From an uncultured Roseburia sp. (GTDB lineage Bacteria; Bacillota; Clostridia; Lachnospirales; Lachnospiraceae): DNA of 54,978 nt. The position numbers were made by a program, and so were the translations under genes. Of the stretch, positions 139 to 29,258 are shown piece after piece. Location: assembly GCA_947088345.1 (NCBI GenBank), contig CAMUGE010000017.1:1-54978 (forward strand), written 5' to 3'. The notes beneath the pieces are model-generated. The model was not told the origin of the DNA. It did no database searches and worked only from the letters and a program-made list of their open reading frames with translations. Within the stretch, counting starts at the first letter, position 1, and each line of letters begins with the position of its first letter.

Positions 139-191
139 AGTATGAAGTGATGGGAGCGGTCTGCTAGGGGCAAAGTGAGGAGGATGGAAGG

Positions 192-1019
192 ATGGATCGT
201 ATAAAAAATAACGTAAATTTACCGCTGTTGTATGAAGTAAGAAAAGATGCATTTGCAAAATCGAGGGATGCAGAGCAGACAGAGCGCTTATTTCGCATGA
301 TGCATTATGTGGATATATTAGTATGGACGGTACGGAAAGAAGGAATGCTCGCCCTGGAGGATGCGGTGAAAAAAATTCCTCTGGAAATCGGATTTGATCA
401 GGATATGCAGTATGCAGTTTCTTTGTGCGTCGATGGCGTGGAACCGGAAGACCTGATGGAAATCCTTACTGCACGGTATTGGAGAAAAAATTTGCAAGGT
501 GAAGATGCGCTGCTGTATTATATGATAATTTTATCCGTGTTAAGAATTCAGGACGGCATATCTCCTTATCGGATGGAAAATCTGCTTATGGCGTGCCTTT
601 CAGACGAGGCGGCAGGAAAATATGCGGAATATAAAAAACAGCGTCAATCTCTGACGCGAGAAAAGACGCCGATGGAGTATCTGCTAAACTCCGAGCCGAG
701 TCTTGGAGAAGGAGGAATTTTGATCGTAAAGAAATTATTGGAGAAAAGGATTGAATATAGTGATAAGAAAATTTTGAAAAGCGTTATCCGCGATGCCAAA
801 GAAAACGATTTGGTAATTTCCTTAAAAGGGCTGTCGATTTCTGCCAGACGAAAATTATTTTCCGTCATACCGGATCGTAAAGCAGAGGAATATGCGGGTG
901 ACTGCGAATCTATGGGACCTGTACGGCAGATAGATGTTATGGCGTCTATGAGCGAATTGATCTTTTTATTTGAAAAACTTGCTAAAAGCGCGGAAAGGCA
1001 GGATGAAAAACATGAGTGA
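192..1019 (+). CDS. MotA-like / FliG C-terminal-like hybrid protein, cytoplasmic
   Basis: This 275-residue protein has no signal peptide or membrane segment. Residues about 38-92 (VRKEGMLALEDAV, then VDGVEPEDLMEIL) follow the pattern of the cytoplasmic part of flagellar MotA stators. Residues about 181-258 follow the FliG C-terminal domain: LVISLKGLS, then R-K-FS, DRKAEE, ESMGPVRQIDV and a final helix, matching the ALKG, MS-RAAE and MGPVR-DV signatures of FliG. In flagella, FliG C-terminal charges interact with the MotA loop; here both halves lie in one soluble chain and no flagellar gene is nearby. Start ATG 192 follows GAGGAGG. Downstream are a frameshifted gene and an ADP-ribosylglycohydrolase. 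The family resemblance is from motif reading; the function is unknown. Confidence 0.75.
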   Translation: MDRIKNNVNLPLLYEVRKDAFAKSRDAEQTERLFRMMHYVDILVWTVRKEGMLALEDAVKKIPLEIGFDQDMQYAVSLCVDGVEPEDLMEILTARYWRKNLQGEDALLYYMIILSVLRIQDGISPYRMENLLMACLSDEAAGKYAEYKKQRQSLTREKTPMEYLLNSEPSLGEGGILIVKKLLEKRIEYSDKKILKSVIRDAKENDLVISLKGLSISARRKLFSVIPDRKAEEYAGDCESMGPVRQIDVMASMSELIFLFEKLAKSAERQDEKHE

Positions 1020-1037: not shown

Positions 1038-1713
1038 GTGATAGATTTCAACAGATGGATTTATGCAAAGGATATCGCAGCATGGATGGCAAAAAATGTT
1101 TCCCTTAATCTGGAAGAGCAGATTGACTGTATCTGCGCAGCGCCTCACAGGACGCTCGAAGAAAAGCTGATGGGAGTAAAGGAACTGAAATCCGAATATG
1201 ACGGAAAGGCGCTTTGTAACAGAATAGAAAATATTGAAATGGTTTTGCACCACAGCCGGTCAGCTACGGTCAGGTATACATATTTATTTGGCATTGAAAT
1301 ATTTTACCGGGGAGAAAAAGAGCGTTTTTTGCCGGATAGGATATTCCGTACAGCAAAGGAAGCGAAAGACGCAAAACTTCCTGTATGACACCTCTGATCA
1401 ATGGCTGATTTATCCGGCGCCAAAGTATAGGAATCAGACGCATGGAATTGGGTTTGTCAATTTAAGAAGCGATAAGATACCTTTTGAAAATAGTTCGGAT
1501 TTTATTTTCCCATATAAGCAGTTGATCCATGCTTATGAGGGGGAGTTAAAAGAAAATGAAATATGGCTGTCAGAATTTAGCGGCTTGGTGGAAGCAGATA
1601 AGAGCTGCATCGAAAAAATGCTGCATGACCGTGAACCGAAAAACTGCGGACATCGATCTATGGATGAAGAACGTCTTAAATATGTAAGAGAACTGGCGGA
1701 AAAACAGAGGTGA
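1038..1713 (+). pseudogene. Frameshifted gene of unknown function, between the hybrid protein and the ADP-ribosylglycohydrolase
   Basis: The first frame runs from ATG 1038 (RBS AAGGAGAGG) for 116 residues to a TGA at 1386-1388. Without a gap the frame one base ahead continues (YDTSDQWLIYPAPKYRN) to a TGA at 1711-1713, giving about 110 more residues. Joined, they make one protein of about 225 residues. The join lies around 1370-1384; removing one base, for instance one A of GCAAAACTT, restores a single frame. The N-terminus is helical and rich in Trp, Cys and acidic residues; no known domain is evident. The gene ends directly at the next start, so it sits in the same operon. Real mutation, sequencing error and +1 recoding cannot be separated here; there is no classic +1 recoding site. 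Confidence 0.65.
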
Positions 1714-1719
1714 ATGATT

Positions 1720-2664
1720 ATGGGAAAAGTTTATGATGGAATCATCGGTGTGGCGATCGGGGACGCATTGGGCGTGCCCGTTGAATTTGTATCCAGAGAG
1801 GAGCTTGCAAAATGCCCCGTTACAGGTATGCGGGGCTATGGGACACATGATCAGCCGGCGGGAACGTGGTCAGACGACACAAGCCTGACATTGGCGCTTA
1901 TGGACAGTATAACGTACAGACAGGCAATTGATTATTATGATATCATGGATAAATTTTCGCAATGGTTCCTGTATGGTGCATATACGGCAGCAGAAGAAGT
2001 CTTTGACGTGGGCGGCGCAACAAGCAGGGCGATTATGAATTTTGAGCGCGGCATAAATCCGTTAGACTGCGGAGGAGTGTCTGAGTACGAAAACGGAAAC
2101 GGTTCTTTAATGCGCATTTTACCGGCTGCGTATTATATTAAAAAAAAGGCTGGTATTTTGCCGGACAAACAGATGGATATTGTACATAACCTATCATCTC
2201 TGACACACAGACATACAATAAGTCTGATTGGGTGCGGAATCTATGTCAATGTTGCGTTAAAATTACTGTCGGGGAGTCTGGCGTTAATAGATGGAATCAG
2301 GCAGGGAATGGAAGAAGCGTTTCAATATTACAGCAGTCAAAGGTGGGAAAACATATCTGTGTATGACCGTTTAAAAAACATTGAGAGTTTTGCGGATTTG
2401 CCGGAATCGGAAATTCGAAGCAGCGGGTATATTGTTGACACACTTGAGGCAGCGATATGGTGCCTGTTAAATACCAGCGCTTTTCAGGAATGTGTCTTAA
2501 AAGCGGTCAATCTGGGGGATGATGCAGATACTGTCGGGGCAGTTGCTGGCGGGCTGGCTGGAATATACTATGGAGCGGGCAGCATTCCGCAGGAATGGCG
2601 GACCGTGATATTAAAGAGAGATTATATAGAAAAGCTATGCATGGGATTGGAAAATCTGTTGTAA
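1720..2664 (+). CDS. ADP-ribosylglycohydrolase (DraG/ARH-like)
   Basis: Members of this family remove ADP-ribose from proteins or small molecules using two magnesium ions. The metal-binding signatures are visible: DALGVPVEF near the N-terminus, GTWSDDTSLTLAL at about residues 48-60, and GDDADTVGAVAGGLAG at about residues 267-282. The length, about 314 residues, is normal. Two ATGs are possible, at 1714 and 1720; the second is preferred because the AGAGG at 1706-1710 is then spaced nine bases away and the protein begins MGKVYDGIIG as usual. It follows the frameshifted gene without a gap and likely shares its transcript. A role in reversible ADP-ribosylation together with the upstream genes is only inferred from position. 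Confidence 0.9.
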   Translation: MGKVYDGIIGVAIGDALGVPVEFVSREELAKCPVTGMRGYGTHDQPAGTWSDDTSLTLALMDSITYRQAIDYYDIMDKFSQWFLYGAYTAAEEVFDVGGATSRAIMNFERGINPLDCGGVSEYENGNGSLMRILPAAYYIKKKAGILPDKQMDIVHNLSSLTHRHTISLIGCGIYVNVALKLLSGSLALIDGIRQGMEEAFQYYSSQRWENISVYDRLKNIESFADLPESEIRSSGYIVDTLEAAIWCLLNTSAFQECVLKAVNLGDDADTVGAVAGGLAGIYYGAGSIPQEWRTVILKRDYIEKLCMGLENLL

Positions 2665-4143: not shown

Positions 4144-4821
4144 ATGGATACTTATAAAGAAGAGTTTATCGAATTTATGGTAGAGAGCGATGTATTAAAA
4201 TTTGGCGAATTTACATTAAAAAGCGGTCGTAAATCGCCATTTTTTATGAATGCCGGCGCGTATGTGACGGGCAGCCAGCTGATGCGTTTGGGCGAATACT
4301 ATGCAAAGGCGATTCATGCCCATTATGGAGAGGATTTTGACGTGCTCTTCGGGCCGGCCTATAAAGGGATTCCGCTGAGTGTGGCAGCAACAATTGCATT
4401 TTATCAGTTGTACGGAAAGGAAATACGCTACTGCTCCAATCGCAAGGAGGTAAAAGACCACGGGGATACCGGCATTCTGTTGGGAAGCAGGTTAAACGCA
4501 GGCGACAGAGTAGTGATTATTGAGGATGTCACCACATCCGGAAAGTCAATAGAAGAGACATTCCCAATTCTGAAAGCGCAGGCGGATGTAACAGTAGTTG
4601 GGTTAATCGTGTCATTAAACCGTATGGAGAAAGGTCTTGGCGGTGTGATGGGAGCTCTTGACGAGATACATGAAAAATACGGATTTGAAACAAATGCGAT
4701 TGTAACGATGGAAGAGGTGGTGGAACATCTGTATAACCGTCCGTGCCAGGGCAGGATTGTGATTAATGATGAAATAAAAACAGCAATTGATGCATATTAT
4801 AATGAATATGGATGTAATTAG
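4144..4821 (+). CDS. pyrE: Orotate phosphoribosyltransferase
   Basis: The enzyme makes orotidine 5'-monophosphate from orotate and PRPP in pyrimidine synthesis. The PRPP-binding loop VVIIEDVTTSGKS is at about residues 123-135; GPAYKGIPLS and the KDHGDTG loop are also in place. The length, 225 residues, fits the bacterial form. The start ATG 4144 follows GGAGG at 4130-4134. Its promoter is just upstream. The last bases overlap the start of a VanZ-like gene, so the two are probably translationally coupled. No pyrimidine attenuator of the PyrR type is visible. Confidence 0.96.
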   Translation: MDTYKEEFIEFMVESDVLKFGEFTLKSGRKSPFFMNAGAYVTGSQLMRLGEYYAKAIHAHYGEDFDVLFGPAYKGIPLSVAATIAFYQLYGKEIRYCSNRKEVKDHGDTGILLGSRLNAGDRVVIIEDVTTSGKSIEETFPILKAQADVTVVGLIVSLNRMEKGLGGVMGALDEIHEKYGFETNAIVTMEEVVEHLYNRPCQGRIVINDEIKTAIDAYYNEYGCN

Positions 4822-5293
4822 CAAAAATAAACGCCGTGTGGCAATCGTACTATTTATATTATATCTTATCGTTCTGTGTTATTTTCTGTTTTTTTCAGAG
4901 AGTATGGGAAGAACATACAGTGAGCGCAGCTATCACTACAATTTGATGCCTTTAAAAGAAATCAAACGTTTTCTGAAATATTGGCGTATCCTTGGAATCG
5001 GCGCCGTTGCGATCAACCTTGTCGGGAATATTGCGGCGTTTATGCCGTTTGGTGCATTTTTGCCGTTGTTTTGGGGCAGATGCCGTAAATTATGGCGGAC
5101 AGCGCTTTACGGTTTTGAGTTCAGCCTGTTTGTGGAGACGCTGCAGCTGATCTCAAAAGTAGGCAGTTTTGATGTAGACGATATGATATTAAATACGATT
5201 GGCGCGATAGCAGGATTTTTTGCCTGCCGGGCTCTGATCCGCAGAAAGCAGGAGAGAGAAAGAAAGGAGGAGGAGCATACTGGCACGACATAG
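4802..5293 (+). CDS. VanZ-like family membrane protein
   Basis: The protein has an N-terminal membrane helix (IVLFILYLIVLCYFLFFS), the pattern NLMPLKEIKRFL, a helix with NLVGNIAAFMPFGAFLP, and the FVETLQL plus VDDMILNTIGAIAGFF segments typical of VanZ-like proteins. VanZ itself is linked to teicoplanin resistance; most relatives have no proven role. The start is uncertain: ATG 4802 or 4808, both inside the end of pyrE and both without a clear ribosome binding site, which suggests coupling to pyrE translation. The C-terminus is very basic and acidic (RRKQERERKEEE) and its coding sequence carries the ribosome binding site of the next gene. Confidence 0.85.
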   Translation: MNMDVISKNKRRVAIVLFILYLIVLCYFLFFSESMGRTYSERSYHYNLMPLKEIKRFLKYWRILGIGAVAINLVGNIAAFMPFGAFLPLFWGRCRKLWRTALYGFEFSLFVETLQLISKVGSFDVDDMILNTIGAIAGFFACRALIRRKQERERKEEEHTGTT

Positions 5294-5606
5294 AAGCGGA
5301 TATAAATTTACCGAAAAAAAACAGTCTGTGCGCGGGATTACAGCATTTCTGCTGGCGCTCGCGTCCATAGGGATCTTTGTGGCCGCAGCGTTTTATTCCT
5401 GTGGAAAAAAGGGAAACGGAAGCATGTATCTGGGGAGTGTCGGTGTTGCGGCTCTGCTGCTTGGCATGGCCGCATTTGTGCTTGCCATGTTCAGTCTGCG
5501 TGAGGAAAACTCATTTAAACTGTTTCCCTATCTTGCCTCTTTCACTTCTTTTTTTTCTGTTGGAATATGGGCCGCGCTCTATGCGGCGGGATTTCTTCTG
5601 GCATAG
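5280..5606 (+). CDS. DUF6142-like small membrane protein with probable CTG start
   Basis: The frame contains no ATG near its beginning. From GTG 5328 it gives 92 residues, but the frame stays open upstream and reads ARHRSGYKFTEKKQSVRG before the membrane helices, the basic and aromatic lead-in I expect for this family. CTG 5280 (or ATA 5277) lies nine bases after AGGAGG at 5265-5270, so initiation probably occurs there. Three hydrophobic segments follow. The gene overlaps the VanZ-like gene by 14 bases. The family assignment is from recall of similar proteins and is moderately sure; its function is unknown. Confidence 0.7.
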   Translation: MARHRSGYKFTEKKQSVRGITAFLLALASIGIFVAAAFYSCGKKGNGSMYLGSVGVAALLLGMAAFVLAMFSLREENSFKLFPYLASFTSFFSVGIWAALYAAGFLLA

Positions 5607-5621
5607 GAAAGGAAGTTGTGC

Positions 5622-7652
5622 ATGGGGTATTCAAATTATTATCAGGAATCAAATAAGGCGGCTGCAGAACGCTTTGCGCTTGCAAAAGAACGCGTCAAAG
5701 AGATTGAGAGCGAGTCTTTGAATAAAGAGCAGTATCAGGATTATTTTAACAGGACAGCGCATTTTCTGACGCAGTTAGCCGGGGTATGCGAGGCGAAAGC
5801 GGATGGAAAGTCTGCGGGGCGTTCTATTGAGCAATGCAGGCAGACAAACGAAGCGCTGTACGGACAGATCGCAGACGAAGCCGCATATGCGAAAAGTTAT
5901 GCAAATCCGGAGTACGCGAAAGAAGTTCTGGGCGAAGCGGCGGCAGGATTGTCGATGCTGCTTGCACATTTTTTTGATTGTACGGGCAGTGCGTTTCGCG
6001 GCAATAAAATGCGTATTACGATGGCGATGGAATTGTTTGTCGAATTGTACAATATGTTTGAGGATGAGGAAGAAAACGACTGTGTGAAAATTATGACAGG
6101 CGATATTTCTTCTTATTTTCATGATTACAGCGACATTTTTGAGGATGAGGCAGTACGCCGCCTGATTGATAAAAACGAAGATTTTGAACTTCAGATTGTG
6201 GAGGAGAGCGACCTGTCAGATCTTAGGTATCTGTACGCATACGGCGCATATATTGGCGATAATGAATTAAAGACCGCGGCATTTTTAAACGGACTGCCGG
6301 ACGAAGAGATCAAAAAGATTGCAGATACGATAACGGAGGGGTATCGTATTGGTTTTGAAGTAACGGGAAAAGATCTCGGTAAAAAAGAGACGGCACAGAT
6401 CCGCTATCCGATCGGCTTTGAGCGCGTCGTGCGCGAGGTGGTCGGAAACTTAAATAAAATCGGGCTTGCGCCAACGATGTCTGCGGTTTCCGTTTTTCCA
6501 AACAGGCAGTACGAGTACGATCACAGGGAAGACCGTGCGCTTTATCTGGACAAGGCCTGTATCGAGCGCGGTATTTGGGCCAGAAGAGCCTGCTTTGAGG
6601 AATATAAGAGAGAGGCGGGGGCGCATGCAGGTCCAATCGTGATTGATACGTTTGGGGAGCTGCCGTTTGCGCCGGTATCGAAACCTGCCGCAATACGTTA
6701 CAATAAAAAACAGCAGCAGCTTCGCGTCTATGAAATGTCGGCGCGTTCACAGCTGACAAACGAATATATCAAAGGGGAGGAGCGCAGTTTTACAATCATC
6801 GCTTTTCCGGTTCCGGCAATCGGTTCGGATTATGAACAGATTTTCCGCGAGACAGTGAGAATCAATACGCTTGATTATAAGCGTTACCGCGATATGCAGC
6901 AGCGGATGATTGATGTGCTGGATACGGCGAGACAAGTGCATGTAACCGGAAAAGGAGCCAATAAGACAGATCTGTGGATCAGCCTTTACCGGTTAAATAA
7001 TCCGGAGAAAGAAACGATATTTGAAAATTGTGTGGCTGACGTCAATATTCCGGTCGGAGAAATATTTACTTCCCCCGTTTTAAAAGGAACAGAGGGGAAG
7101 CTGTTTGTGAGCCAGGTTTATTTAAGCGGGCTGAACTATAAAAATTTAGAGCTTGATTTTAAAGACGGAAAGATTGTTTCCTATACCTGCGCTAATTTTG
7201 CGGATGAAGAGGAAAATAAAAGATATATCAGAGAGAATCTCTTTGCCCACCATGAAACGCTTCCGATGGGGGAATTTGCAATCGGCACGAACACGACCGC
7301 GTATCGCATGGCGCGGAAGTTTGGAATCGCCGACAAGCTGCCGATTTTAATAGCGGAAAAAACGGGGCCTCATTTTGCAGTCGGCGATACCTGTTACAGC
7401 CATGAGGAAGATCTTGCGTCCTATAATCCTGACGGGAAAGCGATTGTGGCAAGAGAAAATGAAATATCCGCACTGAGAAAAGAAGATATGGAACAGGCAT
7501 ATTTTAACTGTCATACGGATATTACGATTCCATATGACGAACTGGATAAAATAACGGCAGTGAGAGAGGACGGGACCGTGGCGGATGTGATTGCGGACGG
7601 ACATTTTGTAATAAGCGGTACGGAAGAATTAAATCTTCCATTAGACGAATAG
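5622..7652 (+). CDS. M29-family aminopeptidase with long N-terminal extension
   Basis: The C-terminal part matches the M29 (AmpS/thermophilic aminopeptidase) family, metal-dependent exopeptidases. Visible ligand motifs, in order, are PVGEIFTSP, GEFAIGTN, EKTGPHFAVGDTC and a final CHTD near the end, giving the expected Glu, Glu, His and His-x-Asp. The protein is about 676 residues, whereas typical family members are near 400; the first 250-300 residues are helical and acidic with no recognised domain. ATG 5622 is preferred over TTG 5616 by spacing from AGGAAAGGAAG. It lies between a small membrane gene and purE, with purE 18 bases downstream, so it is likely cotranscribed with the purine genes. 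Confidence 0.88.
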   Translation: MGYSNYYQESNKAAAERFALAKERVKEIESESLNKEQYQDYFNRTAHFLTQLAGVCEAKADGKSAGRSIEQCRQTNEALYGQIADEAAYAKSYANPEYAKEVLGEAAAGLSMLLAHFFDCTGSAFRGNKMRITMAMELFVELYNMFEDEEENDCVKIMTGDISSYFHDYSDIFEDEAVRRLIDKNEDFELQIVEESDLSDLRYLYAYGAYIGDNELKTAAFLNGLPDEEIKKIADTITEGYRIGFEVTGKDLGKKETAQIRYPIGFERVVREVVGNLNKIGLAPTMSAVSVFPNRQYEYDHREDRALYLDKACIERGIWARRACFEEYKREAGAHAGPIVIDTFGELPFAPVSKPAAIRYNKKQQQLRVYEMSARSQLTNEYIKGEERSFTIIAFPVPAIGSDYEQIFRETVRINTLDYKRYRDMQQRMIDVLDTARQVHVTGKGANKTDLWISLYRLNNPEKETIFENCVADVNIPVGEIFTSPVLKGTEGKLFVSQVYLSGLNYKNLELDFKDGKIVSYTCANFADEEENKRYIRENLFAHHETLPMGEFAIGTNTTAYRMARKFGIADKLPILIAEKTGPHFAVGDTCYSHEEDLASYNPDGKAIVARENEISALRKEDMEQAYFNCHTDITIPYDELDKITAVREDGTVADVIADGHFVISGTEELNLPLDE

Positions 7653-7670
7653 AAAGCAGAGGAAAAAAGT

Positions 7671-8174
7671 ATGGCAAAAGTTGGAATAGTAATGGGCAGT
7701 GATTCGGATATGCCGGTAATGGCAAAGGCAGCCGATATTTTGGAAAAACTTGGGATTTCATTTGAAATGTCTATTATCTCCGCTCACAGGGAGCCGGACG
7801 TATTTTTTGAGTATGCGAAGACGGCGGAGGAGCGGGGATTCAAAGTCATTATTGCGGGCGCCGGTATGGCGGCGCATCTTCCGGGAATGTGCGCTGCAAT
7901 CTTCCCGATGCCGGTAATCGGCATTCCGATGCACACAACTTCACTGGGAGGACGCGATTCGCTCTATTCTATTGTCCAGATGCCGACAGGCATTCCGGTT
8001 GCAACCGTTGCGATTAACGGGGGCGCAAATGCGGCGCTTCTCGCGGCAAAGATTCTTGCGGTTTCTGACGGGGATCTGCTGTCCAGATTAAAAGATTATA
8101 CAAAAGAATTAAAAGAGCAGGTCGAAGCAAAGGATGCCAGGCTGCAGGAAACAGGTTATAAAAATTATCAATAA
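7671..8174 (+). CDS. purE: N5-carboxyaminoimidazole ribonucleotide mutase
   Basis: PurE moves the carboxyl group of N5-CAIR to give CAIR in purine synthesis. GSDSDMPVM at residues 9-17 and SAHREP at about residues 39-44 are the class I active-site motifs, with the AGMAAHLPG and PVIGIPM segments following. The length of 167 residues is normal. The RBS is AGAGGAAA. It begins the purE-purM-purN-purD block. A purK is not present in the window. Confidence 0.96.
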   Translation: MAKVGIVMGSDSDMPVMAKAADILEKLGISFEMSIISAHREPDVFFEYAKTAEERGFKVIIAGAGMAAHLPGMCAAIFPMPVIGIPMHTTSLGGRDSLYSIVQMPTGIPVATVAINGGANAALLAAKILAVSDGDLLSRLKDYTKELKEQVEAKDARLQETGYKNYQ

Positions 8175-20859: not shown

Positions 20860-20908
20860 ACAGCAAAGGGGAACGGGCGTTTGTGACATTTCATAAACGC
20901 CTTGCTGT
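20860..20908 (+). other. Long imperfect hairpin between glgP and the giant surface protein gene
   Basis: Outer arms ACAGCAA and TTGCTGT and inner arms GGCGTTT and AAACGCC enclose a loop, with a small asymmetry on the left arm. There is no T-run, so it is at best a weak terminator; it may limit read-through from ileS-glgP or protect an end. The RBS of the next gene lies about ten bases downstream. Confidence 0.45.
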
Positions 20909-20930
20909 GTTTGAAATTGGAGGTAAATCT

Positions 20931-23900
20931 ATGGAAGGAAAAAGGAAATTCGGGATCAGAAGAGTACTGGCATTCCTGCTTGCGTTTGCTCTGCTTGCGA
21001 CATCACTTGATTTATCTGTGGTCAGTGTTGCTGCAGCAGATGTCAGGGCAGGTCAGAATGAAGGCGCTTTTGAAAAATGGATTGACAGGGTAGACCTGCC
21101 ACAGTATGCGAAAGATTTTTACGTAAATCTGGATCGCGACACCGGAACGAACGGAAACCATGTACTGCTCAATGGTTCAAAGATTACGATTGGTAACGCC
21201 GAGGGCGTGGCTAATCCCTATATCGGATTTTCTGTCGGTGATTATATGATGGAACCGAATCAGATTGATGAGAGCAGCGACAGGGATCTGGAAATTCGTA
21301 ATAATCTTCTGATTGCCTATAAGGCGTTTTTAAAAGATCATCCGGAGATATTCTGGCTGACGGATACGCCGGAATTTGGGCTTGTATCAAGGGGACAGCA
21401 GCCGGGCGGCACATGGCAGTATATGTATTATCTGATTCTTTCTTATGTAGATCCGATTACAAATCCTTATACTGTATACACGAAAGGATATGAGCAGCCT
21501 AAGACGAGGCAGGACGAGACGGCGGAACTCGATCGGATTATCAACGGAATCAACGTATCAGGAGCGTATGAGGTCGATAAGGTCAAAGCGATACACGACT
21601 GGCTGATTACTGCCAATTTTAGTCAGACAGCTGCCGGAACATCCCAGCTGGCAGGGAAAGCAATCAGTGCAATCAAGCAGCTTACGGGGGATGATGCGCC
21701 CGGTGCAGACGCCTATGCCCAGGCCATGAAAGTCATCTGCGAAAAAAAGGGATTTCCCTGCGTACTGGTCAATGACGGCAATGGAAAGAGCTGGAATTAT
21801 GTGAAAGTAGGCAGCGGATGGTATCTTGTAGATATTGCGGCGGATAAAGCAAATACGACGGATGTAACTACGTCGGGAAATATTTCCACAAAATATTTGC
21901 TGCTTGGATCAAAGACACAGATTGACGGGGGTGAAGTCAGTACGGTATATACGCCCAATAACCTGATTGAGGGTGTTTCCTTTTCAAACGGTCCGGTCTT
22001 AAGCGCAAGCCGTTATCCTCTGCAGCCGGAGGTGATTGAGGGCGTGCTGGTTGTTCCGCCTACCCTGGGTTCCGGAACAGCAGCGGATCCCTATCAGATC
22101 GGCAGTGAGTCGGAGCTGTTCTGGTTTCGGATGCTGGTCAATGGAAACCTGACAGATCAGGCGCAGGATGCGGATGCATGCGCGGTTCTCACGGCGGATA
22201 TTGCGTTGACTGCGAAATGGACGCCGATCGGAACGAACGCAGCGCCGTTTGCAGGTACATTTGACGGAAACGGATTTACGGTTTCCGGTATGCGTGTGGA
22301 AGCGGCTGTTGACAATTACGCAGGATTTTTCGGAAAAGCAGACGGTGCGGAGATCAAGCATTTTGGGCTGACCGGCGCGTCAGTCAGCAATATAGCAGGT
22401 GCGAAGACGGGGGCGCTCTGCGGTGAACTGGCCGGAACATCCACAATAACAAACTGTTTTGCACAGATGTCGACGCCAGGTACAACAGCAGGTATTGCAC
22501 ATACTGTCTCGGCAGGTTCTTCGATTACCTACAGTTTTACAAATGCTTATAAACTGGCGGAGCAGGCAGATCCCGCCTCGACGTTTACAAATTCATATTT
22601 TGTGGCTTCCGGTAACGCCAATCAGCTGGGACAGAGCGCGCCTTTGGCATTTTTTACATCAGGGCAGATCACGTATCAGCTGAACGGCGATAAGTCGACC
22701 GGAGATCTGATCTGGCGCCAGAACGTGGATAACAGCTGGCCGAAAGACCAGTGGCCGCAGTTTAAGACAGAAGGCCATGCAATTGTCTACAAACACCAGA
22801 CTCAGGCCCGTTACTCCAATAAAAAATTTGGAGAGGTAAGAGTTGAAAACACGAATTATACGTATAATGACCACAGCGGCGGTCTCAGTGTCGCTTTGCC
22901 GGACGACTGGGAGGGCGGGCGTACGATTAGCTATCAGTATGCCAACTGGAACAGCAACAGCCCGGGATCGGCTCCGACCAGCGGATGGACAAATGTAACA
23001 AGCGGCGTGTTAAACGATACGACTTTTCCATGCAGATCCTACAGCGCCGGAGTAAATCCATCCTATGATTACTGGCTGAAAATTAAAGTGACAGGTTCAA
23101 CGAATTACAATGATATTGAACAAAACGTAGCGTTTCGGGTCAACAGAAAGCCGTTGACCAGCAGCGATATTACGATTAAAGTGATAAAACCTGCCAATGG
23201 AGAGGCATATTATACGGGCAATGCGCTGAAAATACCGGACGACATTGAGATCGAGGTTACGGATGGCAGCCAGACATTAGTGGTAGAGAAAGATTGGTTC
23301 TATACGGTTTTTGCTACCGGAGAAACCTATATTGAGGCGAAAGAGTATGATATCCAGATTATGGGGCAGGGCAATTACAATGGCACTGGTATAGCCAAAT
23401 TTCTGGTGAAACGGAAACAGGCAGATGTCAGGATTCTTGATACTTATCAGGTAAATTACACATATGGCGATACCGTCAAGGAGCCTACTGACGCCCAGAT
23501 TGTTTATACCGGAGATGCCGGTGCAACAAAAACGATTAAATGGTATAACGCCAATGATACGGACAGAAAAAATCCGCTTACCGGTATACCGTCGGATGCA
23601 GGCACCTATATTGTCCGTGTTGAGATGTCTGCGACCGGTAATTATGAAATGGCTTTCGCAGAAAAGACAGTCACAATTGCCAAAAAGACGCCTACGGTTG
23701 ACGATGTGACAGTGGAGCGGGTCGATAACTGGAACCTGATCTCCGAGTTTGACGGAAAAGAGAGAGTGGCAACTGTTACGGCGAAGAACGGTTTGAATGC
23801 GCGAATTGGTTATCGCACGAGAAGGGGAAGCACATATCTTGCGTCTCCGCCGAAGAATGCCGGGGAGTATGAGTTATGGGTAATTGTGGAAGAGGCGACA

Positions 23901-26900
23901 AATTTTGCGGCTACACAGTTTAAGGTATATGATTTTACGATTCAGAGAAAATCGTTGTCGCAAAGTATGTTTAATGCGCTTGTGGACGAATACTACAGCG
24001 CTACTCCAAGAGAACCTGCAGTTTCGATTTCGGGGGACGGTTCGTTTGCGTGTCTGACAGAGAATGATTTTACGGTTACATACCGCAACAATACAAATGT
24101 CGGCAGTGCGACTGCAGTGATTACCGGAAAAAATAACGGGAATTTTACCGGACAGATTTCACTTCCGTTCAGGATTAATCCAAAAATCTGGGCGGGTGAC
24201 GTTAAAGATTATTACGAGATACGGGGAGATAAGGTTCCGACTCCGGACGGACTCACAGGCGACAACTGGTATAAGGGAGCCGTAACGCTTTTGCCGGCAA
24301 ACGGCTATACGATATGGCTTGGAAAGGCCGGTAATGCTACGACGGGAGACGGCAGCAAGATTGAGATCAAAAGCGAAGGAATTGATCAGGAATTTACTTT
24401 CTATTTAAAAGACGCAGACGGTTATATTGTGTTTGTTCCCAATAGCGGAACGCCCAATTACAGGGAGGAGAAAGTTACGCTGTCGATTGATGCGCAGGGG
24501 CCTGTCTTTAATAATACAAGAACAGGCGGTATCACAATCTCCGGGGAGAACGGCAAGCGTTCCCCTTACCGGGTTGACCCTGGCACAACAAAGAAAACAA
24601 CGTTTTCAACCGTAGACAATCAGGAAGTTTCGGTAAGGATTGAGGCATACGACAAGCTGATCGGTCTTGATAAGATTTATTATTTTGTAGATAAAGTAAG
24701 CAGCAGCACACTGGATGAAGTGATTGAGAGCGAACTGGAGCTGAAAGATCCAACCGTACTGGAATCCAATCCGGACTGGTTTACGGAGGCTCCGTCGCTT
24801 GAAGAGGGAACGTATGCCGGATTTACCATTAACGGAGAAGGCAAATATGTTGTATATGCCTATGCGACAGATAAGTTTGGCAATAAGAGCAGCTATATCT
24901 GTTCGGCGGGTATTACGATAGATAAGACGCCGCCGGAAATCGGGTTTATTATTTCACCGACCAAGGTACAGGGGACATTAAAAGATACGTCGGCTACGAT
25001 CAGTTATTTCAACGCGACGGAAAAAGGAACGTTCTATTTTAAAGTATTGCCGAGAGAGGAAGCGGCGCCGTCCGTTGACGATATTATTGCGGCAGGTGAA
25101 GCCGGCGAAGATGGAACTGCCGGGAAAGGCGAGATGAAAGCCGGAGGCGGTAATACGTTTGAGATGACAGACCTTACGCCCAATACGGAATATCGTCTGT
25201 ATATCGCAGCTGTTGACCGTGCAGGCAATCAGATTATAACACCAAAAACCATAGATTTTAAGACTTGTAAGATTATTACAAAATTCAAGGGCGACGGGCT
25301 GCCGACTCTGGAAGGCGAATACGGCACGAAAGTAAAAGAAATGACCTTGACGCCGCCGGAGCTTGCGGACGATATGGCGCCGGATGCGGGAGGAACATGG
25401 GCAGTCTATACACATTATGTGGATGAAAATGACAATACGCCGATTATCTCTTCCGGAGAGGGCGAAACGATTTACCCGGTGGATGATGAGGACGCGCCGG
25501 CAAAACCTGATCTGGTTGCGGTATTTACACCCGATAATCAGGATCTGTATGAAACTCTGTGGGTGACGATTAAGCCGAGAGTGAACAAAAAGAAGATTAC
25601 AGTTCAGGTAGAGGATGCAAAGAAAGTATATGATACGGCAAATCCTGCTTTCACATGGAGTCTTGCAGGGGAAGATAAGCTGGTAGGAACCGATACGCCG
25701 GATGTGCTTGGCATTGTACTTGATTTTGTGCTGACCGCCAACAACGGAACGGAGGATAACCCGCATGTCGGAACTTACGATATCACCGGAACGTCGAACA
25801 GCAAAAATTACGAAGTGGAATTTTTGCCCGGTACGCTTACCGTTACTAAGGCGCAGGCAACAATTACGGTAAACAGAGAGAATTATCGCGTTACTTTCGG
25901 GGATGCGGTATTTCCGCTGGAAGATATTGAAAAGTACGGCGAGTCTGAGCTGATCTATCGCATTACGAAGAGTCAGGCATATAATCCGCAGATGGGCGAC
26001 GGGCTTTATAACGGAGAAGTGATCACTGTAGACGCACAGGGAAATGTGCGGATCGACGGTGCAGGCGAAGCGGATATTCAGGTATCCATGGCGGCTTCTA
26101 AGAACTATTTTGCAGCGGTGGGAGACAAACAGATTCATGTCTCCGTTGCCAAACATGCGCCGGTTGCCATTGATCAGGTGGAGCAGAAATATGTCTACGC
26201 TGCCGGTACAAAGGATCAGCCTGCGACGATAGAGCTGAGTCAGTTTTTGCTGAAAGATATCGGAAAGAGTATTTTTGAGATTCCCGAGAACGGTATTGCA
26301 GATACGGAAGATATCCTTGCCATGATACAAAATCCGGAGACAGAAGAGCCTGACGAGGGAGGAGACGATCAGAATCCGGATCAGGGAGGCAATGAGAACC
26401 CGGATGAGTCAGAAACCCCGGAAATCCCCGAAGAAAATCAGACAAGAGAAAGGGAAGAGCAGACGCCGGGAGGAGACGATCAGAATCCAGGCGGATCAGG
26501 AGACGATACACAGACGCCGGGAGGAGACGATCAGAATCCAGGCGGATCAAATGTGGAGGCGAAAGCGTTCGTAGGACACCGGAGCGGTAATTTATTCTAC
26601 CAGGTTAAAAAGCTTGGAGAGGATATGATCGGGACATATGCAGATATTACGGTAAATATTATTTCTGCAAACTATGAGCCGCTGACCGTAAATATCCATA
26701 TATTGATACGCGACAAAATTCAGCCATTTGAAGACAAGGAGGCCGAAGTTGACGTTGTCGATAAATCAGAGCTGACCTATGGCGTTTTACTGGGTGACGT
26801 TGCACTCAATACCGAGACGGCGCGCTTTGTTGAGGAGGGTTCCGACAACGAAGTAAAAGGAACGCTTGTCTGGAAAGAGCCGGAAACAGTACTTCAGGTT

Positions 26901-29258
26901 GGAAATGCGCAGGCGGTATGGCTGTTTACGCCTGACGACACAGAGACATATAAGCTGCTTGAGGGAACGCTGTACTTTACGGTAAATAAAGCGGTGCCGA
27001 TTGTGCAGACGCCGACGGCATCCCCGTCTCAGATTATTTATAATCCGACAACGCACCTGTCCGGGATCAGCGTAAACGGGTCAAACGGAACCTGGACCGT
27101 CGGAGGAACAGAGACGACTGTAAGAGGAACCTGGGGATGGAAAGAACCGGATACGGTTCCGACTGTAGATAAGCCGACTTATACCGCTGTATTTACACCA
27201 AAAGACACAGATAACTACGATCCGGCTGAGATTGAGACAGAAATCAGCGTAAGCAAAGCAGTTCCGTATATTGCCGCTAATCCGGACACTTCGGAGCTGA
27301 CATATGGCGATACGCTATCGAATGTGGAATTTACAGGCGGAAGCGTACAGTATAACCAAAACAGCAATATACCAGGCTTTGATACGCCGGTGCCGGGCGT
27401 GTTTGCGTGGATCGACGGTTCGATCAAACCACAGGTGCCGGACAGCAAAAAAACGCTGTATGACATTGAATTTATACCGGAAGACGAGATTAATTATGAG
27501 TCGGTTGGATTTATGATGCCTGTTACGGTAAATCCGGCGGAGAAACCGGACAATACGCCGGCGTATGATCATCAGGACGTACCTTTGGAAGTGGAATATA
27601 TTTCCCAGATTGATCTTCCGGAGAATTGGGAGTGGGATGAGAAAGAAGACTGGGCATTGAAGTCCGGTATGGAATATCATCTGACTGCAATTTATAAAGG
27701 AGAGGACGCAGGAGTCGGCAACTTTAAGATTGAGCGCGTTTCCATTACCGTGCGCCGGGCAGGCTGCGTTCATCCCAATCGGGAAGAACGAAACGTTAAG
27801 AGCACGACATGCTTTGAGGATGGTTATAGCGGAGATATTTACTGCAGCGTCTGCGGAGAGGTCATTTCTGCAGGAACGATCGTTGCATCGCCGGGGCACC
27901 AGTGGGATGCCGGAGTCGTCACACTCGAGCCGACCTGCGAAGAGGACGGAACAGCGCTCTTTACCTGTACTGTCTGTCATACGACGGAGGAGCGTGTCAA
28001 CGATCCGCGCGTGGAGAAACGCGGTCATGACTGGGAGGAGGAGCTGACAATGCTTGATCCGACCTGTACAGAAGAAGGCGCAACGTTTATCCGATGCAAA
28101 CGGTGTGATGCGGCTATGCCGGGTACGGAGATTAAAATCCCGTCGTTTGGAGGCCATATCGGCGGAACGGCAACCTGTACGCAGGAAGCAGTCTGCGAGC
28201 GGTGCGGCGAGCGTTACGGAGAAGTAGATCCCGCAAACCATCCGGAGACAGAAGTGCGCGGTGTCAGAGAGGTTTCATGCTCGCAGGAAGGATTTACCGG
28301 AGATACATTCTGTCTGGTATGTGAAAATCTTGTTGCAGCGGGCAGTGTGATTGAAAAACTTCCGCACAGGTGGATGGAACGAAGATGTATTACGCAGCCG
28401 GATTGTGTTCACCCGGGACTTGAGGTCTTAATCTGCGGTAACTGCGGAATTGAGCAGGAGGAAGTGATTGAGGCGACAGGCGTGCACAAGTGGAGCAATG
28501 TATATACAATTGACAGGCCTGTACAGGGCAGCACAGACGGAAGCAAATCATTCCACTGTACAATCTGCGACTCGATTAATCCGGAGAGTGTCGTTGTAAT
28601 TACGGCTGCGGGCGGCACCGTAAAACAGCCGACCGGCGATTATAAGGTTGTAACGCCGGGAACGAGCAAAACGCCGTCTGTTGAATATACAAAACCGGCG
28701 GATAAGAATGCGCAGAAAGTAAACATTCCGGCTGCAATTACGGTCAACGGAATATCCTATCAGGTAACATCGGTAGCGGCAAATGCATTTAAAAACAATA
28801 AAAAGATTACACAGGTAACAATTGGAAACAATGTCACAAAGATCGGAAACGGAGCGTTTTCCGGATGTACGAAACTGCAGACAGTAACGATCGGCAATAA
28901 AGTAAAGACGGTTGGAAACAATGCGTTTGACGGCTGTAAGAAATTAAAAAATGTTACGATTGGAAGCAAGGTGACGTCCATTGGCACAAAGGCATTTAAC
29001 AAGTGTACCGAGCTGACAAAGATAACGATTCCGAAAAATGTATCAAAAATCGGGAAGCAGGCGTTTAACGGCTGTGCGAAATTAAAGAACATTACGATAA
29101 AAACGACGAAATTAAAGAGCAGTAATGTTGGAAGCAGCGCATTTAAAGGCACTGCGTCGAAAGCTGTTGTGAAAGTGCCAAAGAGCAAGCTTTCCGCATA
29201 CAAAAAGCTTCTGAAATCAAAAGGAATGAGCAAGAAAGCAACTTACAAAAAAGCATGA
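20931..29258 (+). CDS. Giant secreted multidomain surface protein with BspA-type leucine-rich repeats
   Basis: This 2775-residue protein starts with a signal peptide (about 1-38, ending near SVAAADV). In order it shows: a transglutaminase-like fold at about 213-325 whose catalytic Cys and His positions are Ala259 and Lys286; a GLUG-like block at about 380-510; several MBG/YDG-like and Ig-like modules (TYNDHSGG, VNYTYGDTVK, VYDTANPAFTW); an Ig/FN3-like part with DKTPPEIGF and NTEYRLYIAAVDRAGN; an acidic Asp/Pro/Gly-rich linker at about 1803-1873; seven CxxC pairs with HxW motifs at about 2280-2550; and five or six LRR_5 repeats (ITIGNNVTKIG type) at about 2600-2750. No LPXTG signal or SLH domain is visible. 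ATG 20931 follows GGAGGT. It ends in a strong terminator. Adhesion or glycan contact is inferred. Confidence 0.93.
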   Translation: MEGKRKFGIRRVLAFLLAFALLATSLDLSVVSVAAADVRAGQNEGAFEKWIDRVDLPQYAKDFYVNLDRDTGTNGNHVLLNGSKITIGNAEGVANPYIGFSVGDYMMEPNQIDESSDRDLEIRNNLLIAYKAFLKDHPEIFWLTDTPEFGLVSRGQQPGGTWQYMYYLILSYVDPITNPYTVYTKGYEQPKTRQDETAELDRIINGINVSGAYEVDKVKAIHDWLITANFSQTAAGTSQLAGKAISAIKQLTGDDAPGADAYAQAMKVICEKKGFPCVLVNDGNGKSWNYVKVGSGWYLVDIAADKANTTDVTTSGNISTKYLLLGSKTQIDGGEVSTVYTPNNLIEGVSFSNGPVLSASRYPLQPEVIEGVLVVPPTLGSGTAADPYQIGSESELFWFRMLVNGNLTDQAQDADACAVLTADIALTAKWTPIGTNAAPFAGTFDGNGFTVSGMRVEAAVDNYAGFFGKADGAEIKHFGLTGASVSNIAGAKTGALCGELAGTSTITNCFAQMSTPGTTAGIAHTVSAGSSITYSFTNAYKLAEQADPASTFTNSYFVASGNANQLGQSAPLAFFTSGQITYQLNGDKSTGDLIWRQNVDNSWPKDQWPQFKTEGHAIVYKHQTQARYSNKKFGEVRVENTNYTYNDHSGGLSVALPDDWEGGRTISYQYANWNSNSPGSAPTSGWTNVTSGVLNDTTFPCRSYSAGVNPSYDYWLKIKVTGSTNYNDIEQNVAFRVNRKPLTSSDITIKVIKPANGEAYYTGNALKIPDDIEIEVTDGSQTLVVEKDWFYTVFATGETYIEAKEYDIQIMGQGNYNGTGIAKFLVKRKQADVRILDTYQVNYTYGDTVKEPTDAQIVYTGDAGATKTIKWYNANDTDRKNPLTGIPSDAGTYIVRVEMSATGNYEMAFAEKTVTIAKKTPTVDDVTVERVDNWNLISEFDGKERVATVTAKNGLNARIGYRTRRGSTYLASPPKNAGEYELWVIVEEATNFAATQFKVYDFTIQRKSLSQSMFNALVDEYYSATPREPAVSISGDGSFACLTENDFTVTYRNNTNVGSATAVITGKNNGNFTGQISLPFRINPKIWAGDVKDYYEIRGDKVPTPDGLTGDNWYKGAVTLLPANGYTIWLGKAGNATTGDGSKIEIKSEGIDQEFTFYLKDADGYIVFVPNSGTPNYREEKVTLSIDAQGPVFNNTRTGGITISGENGKRSPYRVDPGTTKKTTFSTVDNQEVSVRIEAYDKLIGLDKIYYFVDKVSSSTLDEVIESELELKDPTVLESNPDWFTEAPSLEEGTYAGFTINGEGKYVVYAYATDKFGNKSSYICSAGITIDKTPPEIGFIISPTKVQGTLKDTSATISYFNATEKGTFYFKVLPREEAAPSVDDIIAAGEAGEDGTAGKGEMKAGGGNTFEMTDLTPNTEYRLYIAAVDRAGNQIITPKTIDFKTCKIITKFKGDGLPTLEGEYGTKVKEMTLTPPELADDMAPDAGGTWAVYTHYVDENDNTPIISSGEGETIYPVDDEDAPAKPDLVAVFTPDNQDLYETLWVTIKPRVNKKKITVQVEDAKKVYDTANPAFTWSLAGEDKLVGTDTPDVLGIVLDFVLTANNGTEDNPHVGTYDITGTSNSKNYEVEFLPGTLTVTKAQATITVNRENYRVTFGDAVFPLEDIEKYGESELIYRITKSQAYNPQMGDGLYNGEVITVDAQGNVRIDGAGEADIQVSMAASKNYFAAVGDKQIHVSVAKHAPVAIDQVEQKYVYAAGTKDQPATIELSQFLLKDIGKSIFEIPENGIADTEDILAMIQNPETEEPDEGGDDQNPDQGGNENPDESETPEIPEENQTREREEQTPGGDDQNPGGSGDDTQTPGGDDQNPGGSNVEAKAFVGHRSGNLFYQVKKLGEDMIGTYADITVNIISANYEPLTVNIHILIRDKIQPFEDKEAEVDVVDKSELTYGVLLGDVALNTETARFVEEGSDNEVKGTLVWKEPETVLQVGNAQAVWLFTPDDTETYKLLEGTLYFTVNKAVPIVQTPTASPSQIIYNPTTHLSGISVNGSNGTWTVGGTETTVRGTWGWKEPDTVPTVDKPTYTAVFTPKDTDNYDPAEIETEISVSKAVPYIAANPDTSELTYGDTLSNVEFTGGSVQYNQNSNIPGFDTPVPGVFAWIDGSIKPQVPDSKKTLYDIEFIPEDEINYESVGFMMPVTVNPAEKPDNTPAYDHQDVPLEVEYISQIDLPENWEWDEKEDWALKSGMEYHLTAIYKGEDAGVGNFKIERVSITVRRAGCVHPNREERNVKSTTCFEDGYSGDIYCSVCGEVISAGTIVASPGHQWDAGVVTLEPTCEEDGTALFTCTVCHTTEERVNDPRVEKRGHDWEEELTMLDPTCTEEGATFIRCKRCDAAMPGTEIKIPSFGGHIGGTATCTQEAVCERCGERYGEVDPANHPETEVRGVREVSCSQEGFTGDTFCLVCENLVAAGSVIEKLPHRWMERRCITQPDCVHPGLEVLICGNCGIEQEEVIEATGVHKWSNVYTIDRPVQGSTDGSKSFHCTICDSINPESVVVITAAGGTVKQPTGDYKVVTPGTSKTPSVEYTKPADKNAQKVNIPAAITVNGISYQVTSVAANAFKNNKKITQVTIGNNVTKIGNGAFSGCTKLQTVTIGNKVKTVGNNAFDGCKKLKNVTIGSKVTSIGTKAFNKCTELTKITIPKNVSKIGKQAFNGCAKLKNITIKTTKLKSSNVGSSAFKGTASKAVVKVPKSKLSAYKKLLKSKGMSKKATYKKA
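26460..26549 (+). repeat. Tandem 39-bp repeat encoding an acidic Gly/Pro linker
   Basis: Two identical 39-base copies start at 26460 and 26511, and a shorter third match (GAGGAGACGATCAGAATCC) lies near 26358. They encode QTPGGDDQNPGGS-type sequence inside the giant surface protein. The unit spacing of 51 bases keeps the frame, so copy-number change would lengthen or shorten the linker without breaking the gene. Confidence 0.8.

Follow-up and report, generated by a model that had tools for sequence, protein, structure and literature searches.

Torque in the flagellar motor is made at the contact between the stator protein MotA and the rotor protein FliG, and to our knowledge the known inhibitors of this contact, EpsE and YcgR, are built from unrelated folds. 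YcgR is a PilZ-type protein in which we know of no MotA or FliG domain. EpsE, the clutch of Bacillus subtilis, binds FliG and separates the rotor from the stator (PMC13432727), and it is reported to be glycosyltransferase-like (PMC3000366). YcgR, the brake that acts with cyclic diguanosine monophosphate, has been proposed to bind MotA and then to be delivered to FliG (PMC12713396). Here we describe a gene at positions 192..1019 of a 54,978-nucleotide stretch of DNA from an uncultured Roseburia sp. of the Lachnospiraceae (contig CAMUGE010000017.1; the whole stretch is called the window), whose product, the window protein, joins parts of MotA and FliG in one soluble polypeptide.

Composition and predicted fold of the fusion protein

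The coding sequence of the soluble MotA-FliG_C fusion (192..1019, + strand) was identified from its sequence and from profile matches. It lies where a first-pass annotation of the window had placed it and encodes 275 amino acids from an ATG start, and AGGAGG, a likely ribosome-binding site (178..183, + strand), lies 8 nucleotides before the ATG. The window protein consists of the cytoplasmic segments of MotA, with the membrane helices missing, and then FliG_C; the first of these assignments is based on a two-block match to MotA together with the lack of a hydropathic helix. The same annotation had recognized a MotA-like and a FliG C-terminal-like segment in one soluble protein, and profile searches with both halves confirmed this by matching the MotA and FliG_C families. 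Its segment bounds, residues 38–92 and 181–258, were close to those found here, but it overlooked the second MotA block at about residues 105–146, and it noted neither that the membrane helices have been lost nor that the variants described below exist.

The NCBIfam MotA model matched the window protein with an E-value of 3.1e-8 and a best stretch at residues 21–94. The score of 32.9 bits did not reach the curated cut-off of 340 bits for the whole protein, as expected because the MotA part is a fragment. Residues 21–94 (252..473, + strand) correspond to the cytoplasmic loop between transmembrane helices TM2 and TM3, in which R90 and E98 of Escherichia coli MotA correspond to R48 and E56. Joined directly to this loop is the cytoplasmic tail that follows TM4 in MotA (residues ~105–146; 504..629, + strand), which is marginal in the window protein and clear family-wide. 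A hidden Markov model (HMM) built from 33 true MotAs and run against 26 family proteins matched the loop block of the window protein at residues 43–94 (independent E-value (i-E) 4.5e-12; model positions 84–130) and the tail block at residues 107–146 (i-E 0.041, marginal alone; model positions 216–255), and skipped the TM3–TM4 model positions between the two. At an i-E of 0.05 and one database size, the loop was found in 25 of the 26 family proteins, the tail in 17, and both blocks in order in 17. The same database size gave one loop match, no tail match and no match of both blocks among 520 shuffled proteins; the best i-E in the loop region of these was 0.023, and no shuffled tail match fell below 0.05. 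In the reverse direction, the profile of the fusion family matched true MotAs in two blocks, at about MotA residues 77–132 and 222–258, again skipping TM3–TM4.

The four transmembrane helices of MotA stator proteins were not found in the window protein, in which the highest mean Kyte-Doolittle hydropathy over 19 residues was 1.32, compared with 1.86–2.91 in the 33 MotAs. Across the 26 family proteins this maximum ranged from 0.79 to 1.77, and four of them had one or two windows above 1.6.

The FliG C-terminal region covers residues 154–266 (651..989, + strand). Within it, Pfam FliG_C (PF01706) matched residues 187–266 with an E-value of 6.4e-10 and 39.7 bits, compared with a gathering cut-off of 23.3, and solved FliG chains matched residues 154–268 (E 2e-6). 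K264, R281, D289 and R297 of FliG correspond to K212, R229, D237 and R245, and D288 to G236. There was no Pfam match to FliG_N or the FliG middle domain in the window protein, and TIGR00207 scored 34.7 bits against a cut-off of 226.7. The Pfam scan covered part of the family members, and FliG_C was above the cut-off in all 16 full-length fusions scanned; NCBIfam fliG matched 8/8 full-length fusions in one scanned set, the weakest (L088) at 6.5e-4. Judged by its sequence, the window protein is thus neither a MotA, since it has no membrane helices, nor a FliG, since it has no match to the N-terminal and middle domains.

The AlphaFold2 model of the window protein was all-helical, with a predicted local distance difference test score (pLDDT) of 90.7 and a predicted TM-score (pTM) of 0.77. 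The alignment behind this model contained true MotA and FliG fragments; a second model, from fusion sequences only, had a pLDDT of 82.6 and a pTM of 0.70, and its helices were nearly unchanged. With both models, the top 21 Foldseek matches in the PDB belonged without exception to the flagellar stator (MotA) or to the rotor (FliG, C-ring), including the MotA structure 8ucs_C (Foldseek probability 1.00). The overlay on the FliG C domain suggested by the first-pass annotation gave, for 1qc7_B, a TM-score by target of 0.88 and a root mean square deviation of 1.4 Å over 85 columns. The probabilities were near 1, but the Foldseek E-values were weak, all being above 0.001 (best 0.022 and 0.0097), and because this threshold was never passed we gave the sequence profiles more weight than the fold matches. 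A profile of 12 fusions matched 21 PDB sequences at an E-value of 0.01, and all of them were FliG (one a FliF-FliG chain), MotA or PomA; the best matches were FliG at 2e-27 and MotA at 6e-21.

Contact positions, selection and distribution of the family

In E. coli, R90 and E98 of MotA and K264, R281, D289 and R297 of FliG make or aid the stator-rotor contact (PMC6079164). Of the contact positions considered, the window protein has lost only D288 of FliG. Among the 26 family proteins, R was present at the R90 position in 20 and E at the E98 position in 23; part of this set was found through a seed pattern (RKEG) that contains both positions. The 19 members not found through the RKEG pattern had R at the R90 position in 14 cases and K in two, and E at the E98 position in 16; among the 267 alignment columns of these 19, E98 ranked 7th in conservation and R90 26th. 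For the FliG positions in members outside the pattern, K was found at K264 in 13/17, R at R281 in 11/16, D or E at D289 in 12/16 and R at R297 in 10/17. As controls, K, R, D/E and R occupied these four positions in 41/41 true FliGs, a comparison that is not circular, and R and E were present in 33/33 true MotAs, a comparison that is circular because 32 of the 33 came from the scan whose seed pattern holds those positions.

The ratios of nonsynonymous to synonymous substitution rates (dN/dS) of six pairs were 0.19, 0.08, 0.12, 0.25, 0.29 and 0.06, where the fourth is a MotA-only pair, the sixth includes one MotA-only partner, and three of the dS values exceed 1. The MotA-FliG_C family is under purifying selection, and the chimera family is real and conserved.

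Within the window genus, 6 of 62 genomes carried a family member according to profile searches. In a sample of 397 genomes of the taxonomic family, the MotA-part profile matched 13 at an E-value of 1e-15; the match in one of them (G100) was a true membrane MotA, which left 12 carriers. In the order sample, six of 295 genomes matched at 1e-32; one was the window genome, and the other five belong to a second family within the order (f5). Seven of the 38 f5 genomes matched at 1e-29, and in all seven a FliG_C-like stretch comes after the MotA blocks. A class sample of 321 genomes, some of which belong to the same family and order, had a single match at 1e-30, that of the window genome. Stringent thresholds and profiles biased towards known members make these counts lower bounds. 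A pattern scan of genome contigs gave at least 594 pattern matches, of which at least 41 were confirmed; among the confirmed matches listed were eight fusion loci (L093–L100), all titled Lachnospiraceae (e.g. Lachnospiraceae bacterium A4, L098), and 33 others that matched as true MotAs or, in the flanks, FliGs. As far as sampled, the family is confined to the order of Lachnospiraceae.

FliG_N, which is missing from the fusions, served as a marker of FliG and was present in 212 of the 397 genomes in the family sample. All 12 carriers were among these 212, two of them with weaker matches (1.2e-8 in G449 and 3.3e-16 in G463). Ten more carriers, five from the genus and five from f5, were all positive, as were the two remaining f5 carriers, which brings the total to 24/24 carrier genomes. 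The probability that all 11 sampled carriers besides the window genome would be FliG_N-positive by chance was 9e-4, a value that ignores kinship and uses a base rate referring to the 397-genome family sample, not to f5.

Resolution was poor in the trees of both the MotA part (57 of the 67 rows with a match were kept) and the FliG part (70 rows, 66 of them distinct). The f5 members grouped with true MotAs at 98% ultrafast bootstrap, which could reflect a separate fusion origin or a long-branch effect. Additional MotA-like ORFs of 267–384 amino acids were observed in five genomes (G024:C47, G043:C14, G007:C25, G039:C2 and G025:C62) on contigs other than those with the FliG matches, and these are possibly second stators.

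Proposed role, variants and neighbouring genes

We propose, at about even confidence for and against, that the fusion regulates the flagellar motor as a soluble protein built from the motor's own contact surfaces. Composition, fold, selection and co-occurrence were computed, and from the sequences we infer that both halves could bind the motor. The MotA-like half would take the stator's place on the rotor FliG_C, and/or the FliG_C half would dock on membrane MotA at its cytoplasmic face. Either docking could uncouple or slow the motor, so that the fusion would act as a clutch, brake or adaptor, and the timing might be set by a partner gene, by expression or, in two members, by phosphorylated CheY (CheY-P) through a tail resembling FliM/FliY.

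Several observations weigh against this proposal. In the sequences themselves, the window protein has G at the D288 position, about one third of the members have lost FliG contact positions, and in L135 and L137 the D288, D289 and R297 positions are all leucine, as seen by eye. The MotA part is undetectable in L090:4458-5273, and FliG_C is absent from three members (L082, 147 amino acids; L080, 209; L089, 163). The family diverges fast, with a mean pairwise identity among 16 full-length members of 26% (MotA part) and 27% (FliG part), its distribution is patchy, and its co-occurrence with FliG may partly follow shared ancestry. In addition, the neighbouring genes are non-flagellar and mostly not conserved, and there was no enrichment of SigD-type promoters, a score of at least 10 being found for 2/30 fusion genes compared with 14/335 genes of the loci, a background that includes the fusion genes of the same loci.

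Two kinds of variant favour a regulatory rather than a structural role. The N-terminal peptide of FliM and FliY has a CheY-binding role, and a motif resembling it was found at the C-terminus of the family members L003 and L080 (8314–8943). Among 1115 proteins encoded at the loci analysed, a loose pattern for this motif matched 13; in 11 of these the match was N-terminal, in proteins at a FliY-like place in Butyrivibrio flagellar loci, and the other two were the C-terminal matches in L003 and L080. Among reference proteins, Pfam identified L115:11971-12951 as FliM, and CheC-like and FliMN_C domains in L115:12959-14197. In BLOSUM62 motif scoring L003 had 42, the best score outside FliM/FliY, an unrelated protein from L075 came next with 38, and L080 had 33, inside the FliM range of 32–36. 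The resemblance is suggestive only, because the pattern was drawn after both tails had been seen and Pfam gave no match for either tail. In the second kind of variant, found in f5, a single ORF of G565 (L136 1060–2235 / L143 7303–8478) encodes an N-terminal AraC-type helix-turn-helix (HTH) DNA-binding domain (PF12833, E 3e-19) ahead of the MotA blocks, with FliG_C (E 4e-18) last; the same ORF in G551 (L139 / L144 1–969) is ended inside FliG_C by the contig end.

A broader and rather doubtful proposal is that there is a natural family of soluble motor mimics, in which cytoplasmic halves of MotA and FliG_C, in some members with the FliM/FliY-like peptide or the AraC domain, would occupy the stator-rotor contact on both its sides and thereby read or control the motor, and in some species would feed the motor state directly to transcription. 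The AraC-fused pair, with a dN/dS of 0.077, also bears on the alternative that the module is a sensor of motor state or assembly, binding free MotA or FliG or sensing the motor and signalling to transcription, directly where AraC is fused and via partners where the module stands alone. A hybrid histidine kinase with receiver domains, encoded just upstream of the fusion in L085, points the same way. We consider this alternative unlikely, as the AraC fusion occurred in only two of the seven f5 carriers, both of genus g27, and Pfam found no DNA-binding domain in the window protein.

Further variants concern gene order and copy number. In two f5 genomes (G641 and G700) a MotA-only gene directly precedes the fusion, and L090 and G463 have two copies each.

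The first-pass annotation placed the gene outside any flagellar locus, and this agrees with our comparison: only one of the 39 predicted genes of the window, the fusion itself, matched at an E-value of 1e-3 the genes of seven loci holding parts of flagellar gene clusters, a set that does not include every flagellar gene. The FliG and MotA matches of the source genome itself lie on another contig (C13). Downstream of the fusion is a linked gene (1038..1713, + strand), here in the form of two overlapping ORFs (1038–1388 and 1234–1713) and apparently frameshifted and shortened internally; intact copies encode 345 amino acids in L093 (10962–11999) and 324 in L006 (1978–2952), and Pfam gave no match for these two copies. 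It is followed by an ADP-ribosylglycohydrolase gene (1714..2664, + strand; PF03747, E 1e-71), which the first-pass annotation had correctly named as a neighbour. Such a gene is not a conserved companion, as none of the flanking genes available at the 22 other loci, where some flanks are short, clustered with it, and a link to ADP-ribosylation was rejected for this reason. A theme of nicotinamide adenine dinucleotide (NAD), considered because Sir2 lies beside the fusion in L003 and L076, was also set aside, since the other neighbours examined differ.

A block of five clustered genes (window 4144–8174) is common to the window and L079 (G029), with the fusion and the linked gene nearby in both. 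The other neighbours vary and include Sir2, GAF, a hybrid histidine kinase, GDSL lipase, HAD, phosphoesterase, MBL and leucine-rich repeat (LRR) proteins, of which the phosphoesterase and the MBL protein recur at three loci each. Scored with the SigD promoter consensus, the 191 nucleotides available upstream of the window fusion gave a best score of 8 of 12, and the idea that the fusion is a SigD regulon gene was dropped after the negative promoter test. Two further genes of the contig were observed: a very large predicted protein of 2791 amino acids (window 20883–29258), and a 678-amino-acid protein (window 5616–7652) whose C-terminal part matches peptidase M29 (E 9e-16) and whose long N-terminal region has no Pfam match.

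These variable, non-flagellar neighbours, Sir2, GAF, LRR, phosphoesterase and MBL among them, together with the missing SigD signal and the loss of FliG contact positions in part of the family, would fit an exapted scaffold, in which the module would have lost its contact with the motor and would act in a different pathway as a helical platform for interactions. We judge this somewhat less likely still than the sensor, given that the MotA contact positions are mostly retained and FliG_N is present in 24/24 carriers. The first-pass annotation had offered an exapted motor module or a regulator; the regulator is the best-supported reading, and the presence of FliG_N in all 24 carriers checked speaks against exaptation away from motility.

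Fast divergence, patchy distribution and an array of four tandem fusion paralogues in L097 (4993–10322) are features that would be consistent with a decoy shielding the motor from phage products or toxins of rivals aimed at MotA or FliG. This largely conjectural reading is improbable: no such attacker emerged, though no search was directed at one, three scans of viral contigs with two seed patterns gave 169, 169 and 52 pattern matches and zero confirmed relatives, and a search of viral folds in BFVD gave nothing at an E-value of 0.001. In L097, BspA-type LRR proteins are encoded before the first paralogue and between the first and the second. A decaying gene-fusion relic or mis-assembled ORF, to which the broken appearance of the adjoining gene (1038–1713) might point, is extremely improbable and in the main already refuted by the same architecture in many genomes, dN/dS values of 0.06–0.29 and the confident fold.

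Comparison with known motor proteins

Lachnospiraceae are common gut commensals, and their flagella matter to host immunity. If the proposed regulator is real, a soluble protein with both contact faces would represent a new control principle and provide a membrane-free probe of the interface. A soluble MotA-FliG protein was not found in the titles and abstract openings of the literature searched, which mostly excluded subscription journals, so that its absence in print is not established.

Like MotA (6ysf, 8ucs chain C), the fusion has the TM2–TM3 loop and the post-TM4 tail with the R90 and E98 positions; unlike MotA, it is joined to FliG_C and lacks transmembrane helices, and hence it has no ion channel. 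With the FliG C-terminal domain (1lkv, 1qc7, 8ucs chain H) it shares the fold and most contact positions, but in the window protein G replaces D288 and there is no FliG_N match, so that no seat in the C-ring would be expected. The C-terminal motif of L003 and L080 resembles the CheY-binding peptide of FliM/FliY but differs from it in its C-terminal place, and the window protein has none. We know of no domain common to EpsE and the fusion, for which a working similar to that of the EpsE clutch is proposed. As with flagellar clutch and brake proteins in general, the carriers of the fusion have the flagellar rotor gene (FliG_N, 24/24), and the contact positions for its putative binding to FliG or MotA are mostly kept. 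The fusion is also comparable to YcgR, a soluble protein reported to touch both MotA and FliG (PMC12713396).
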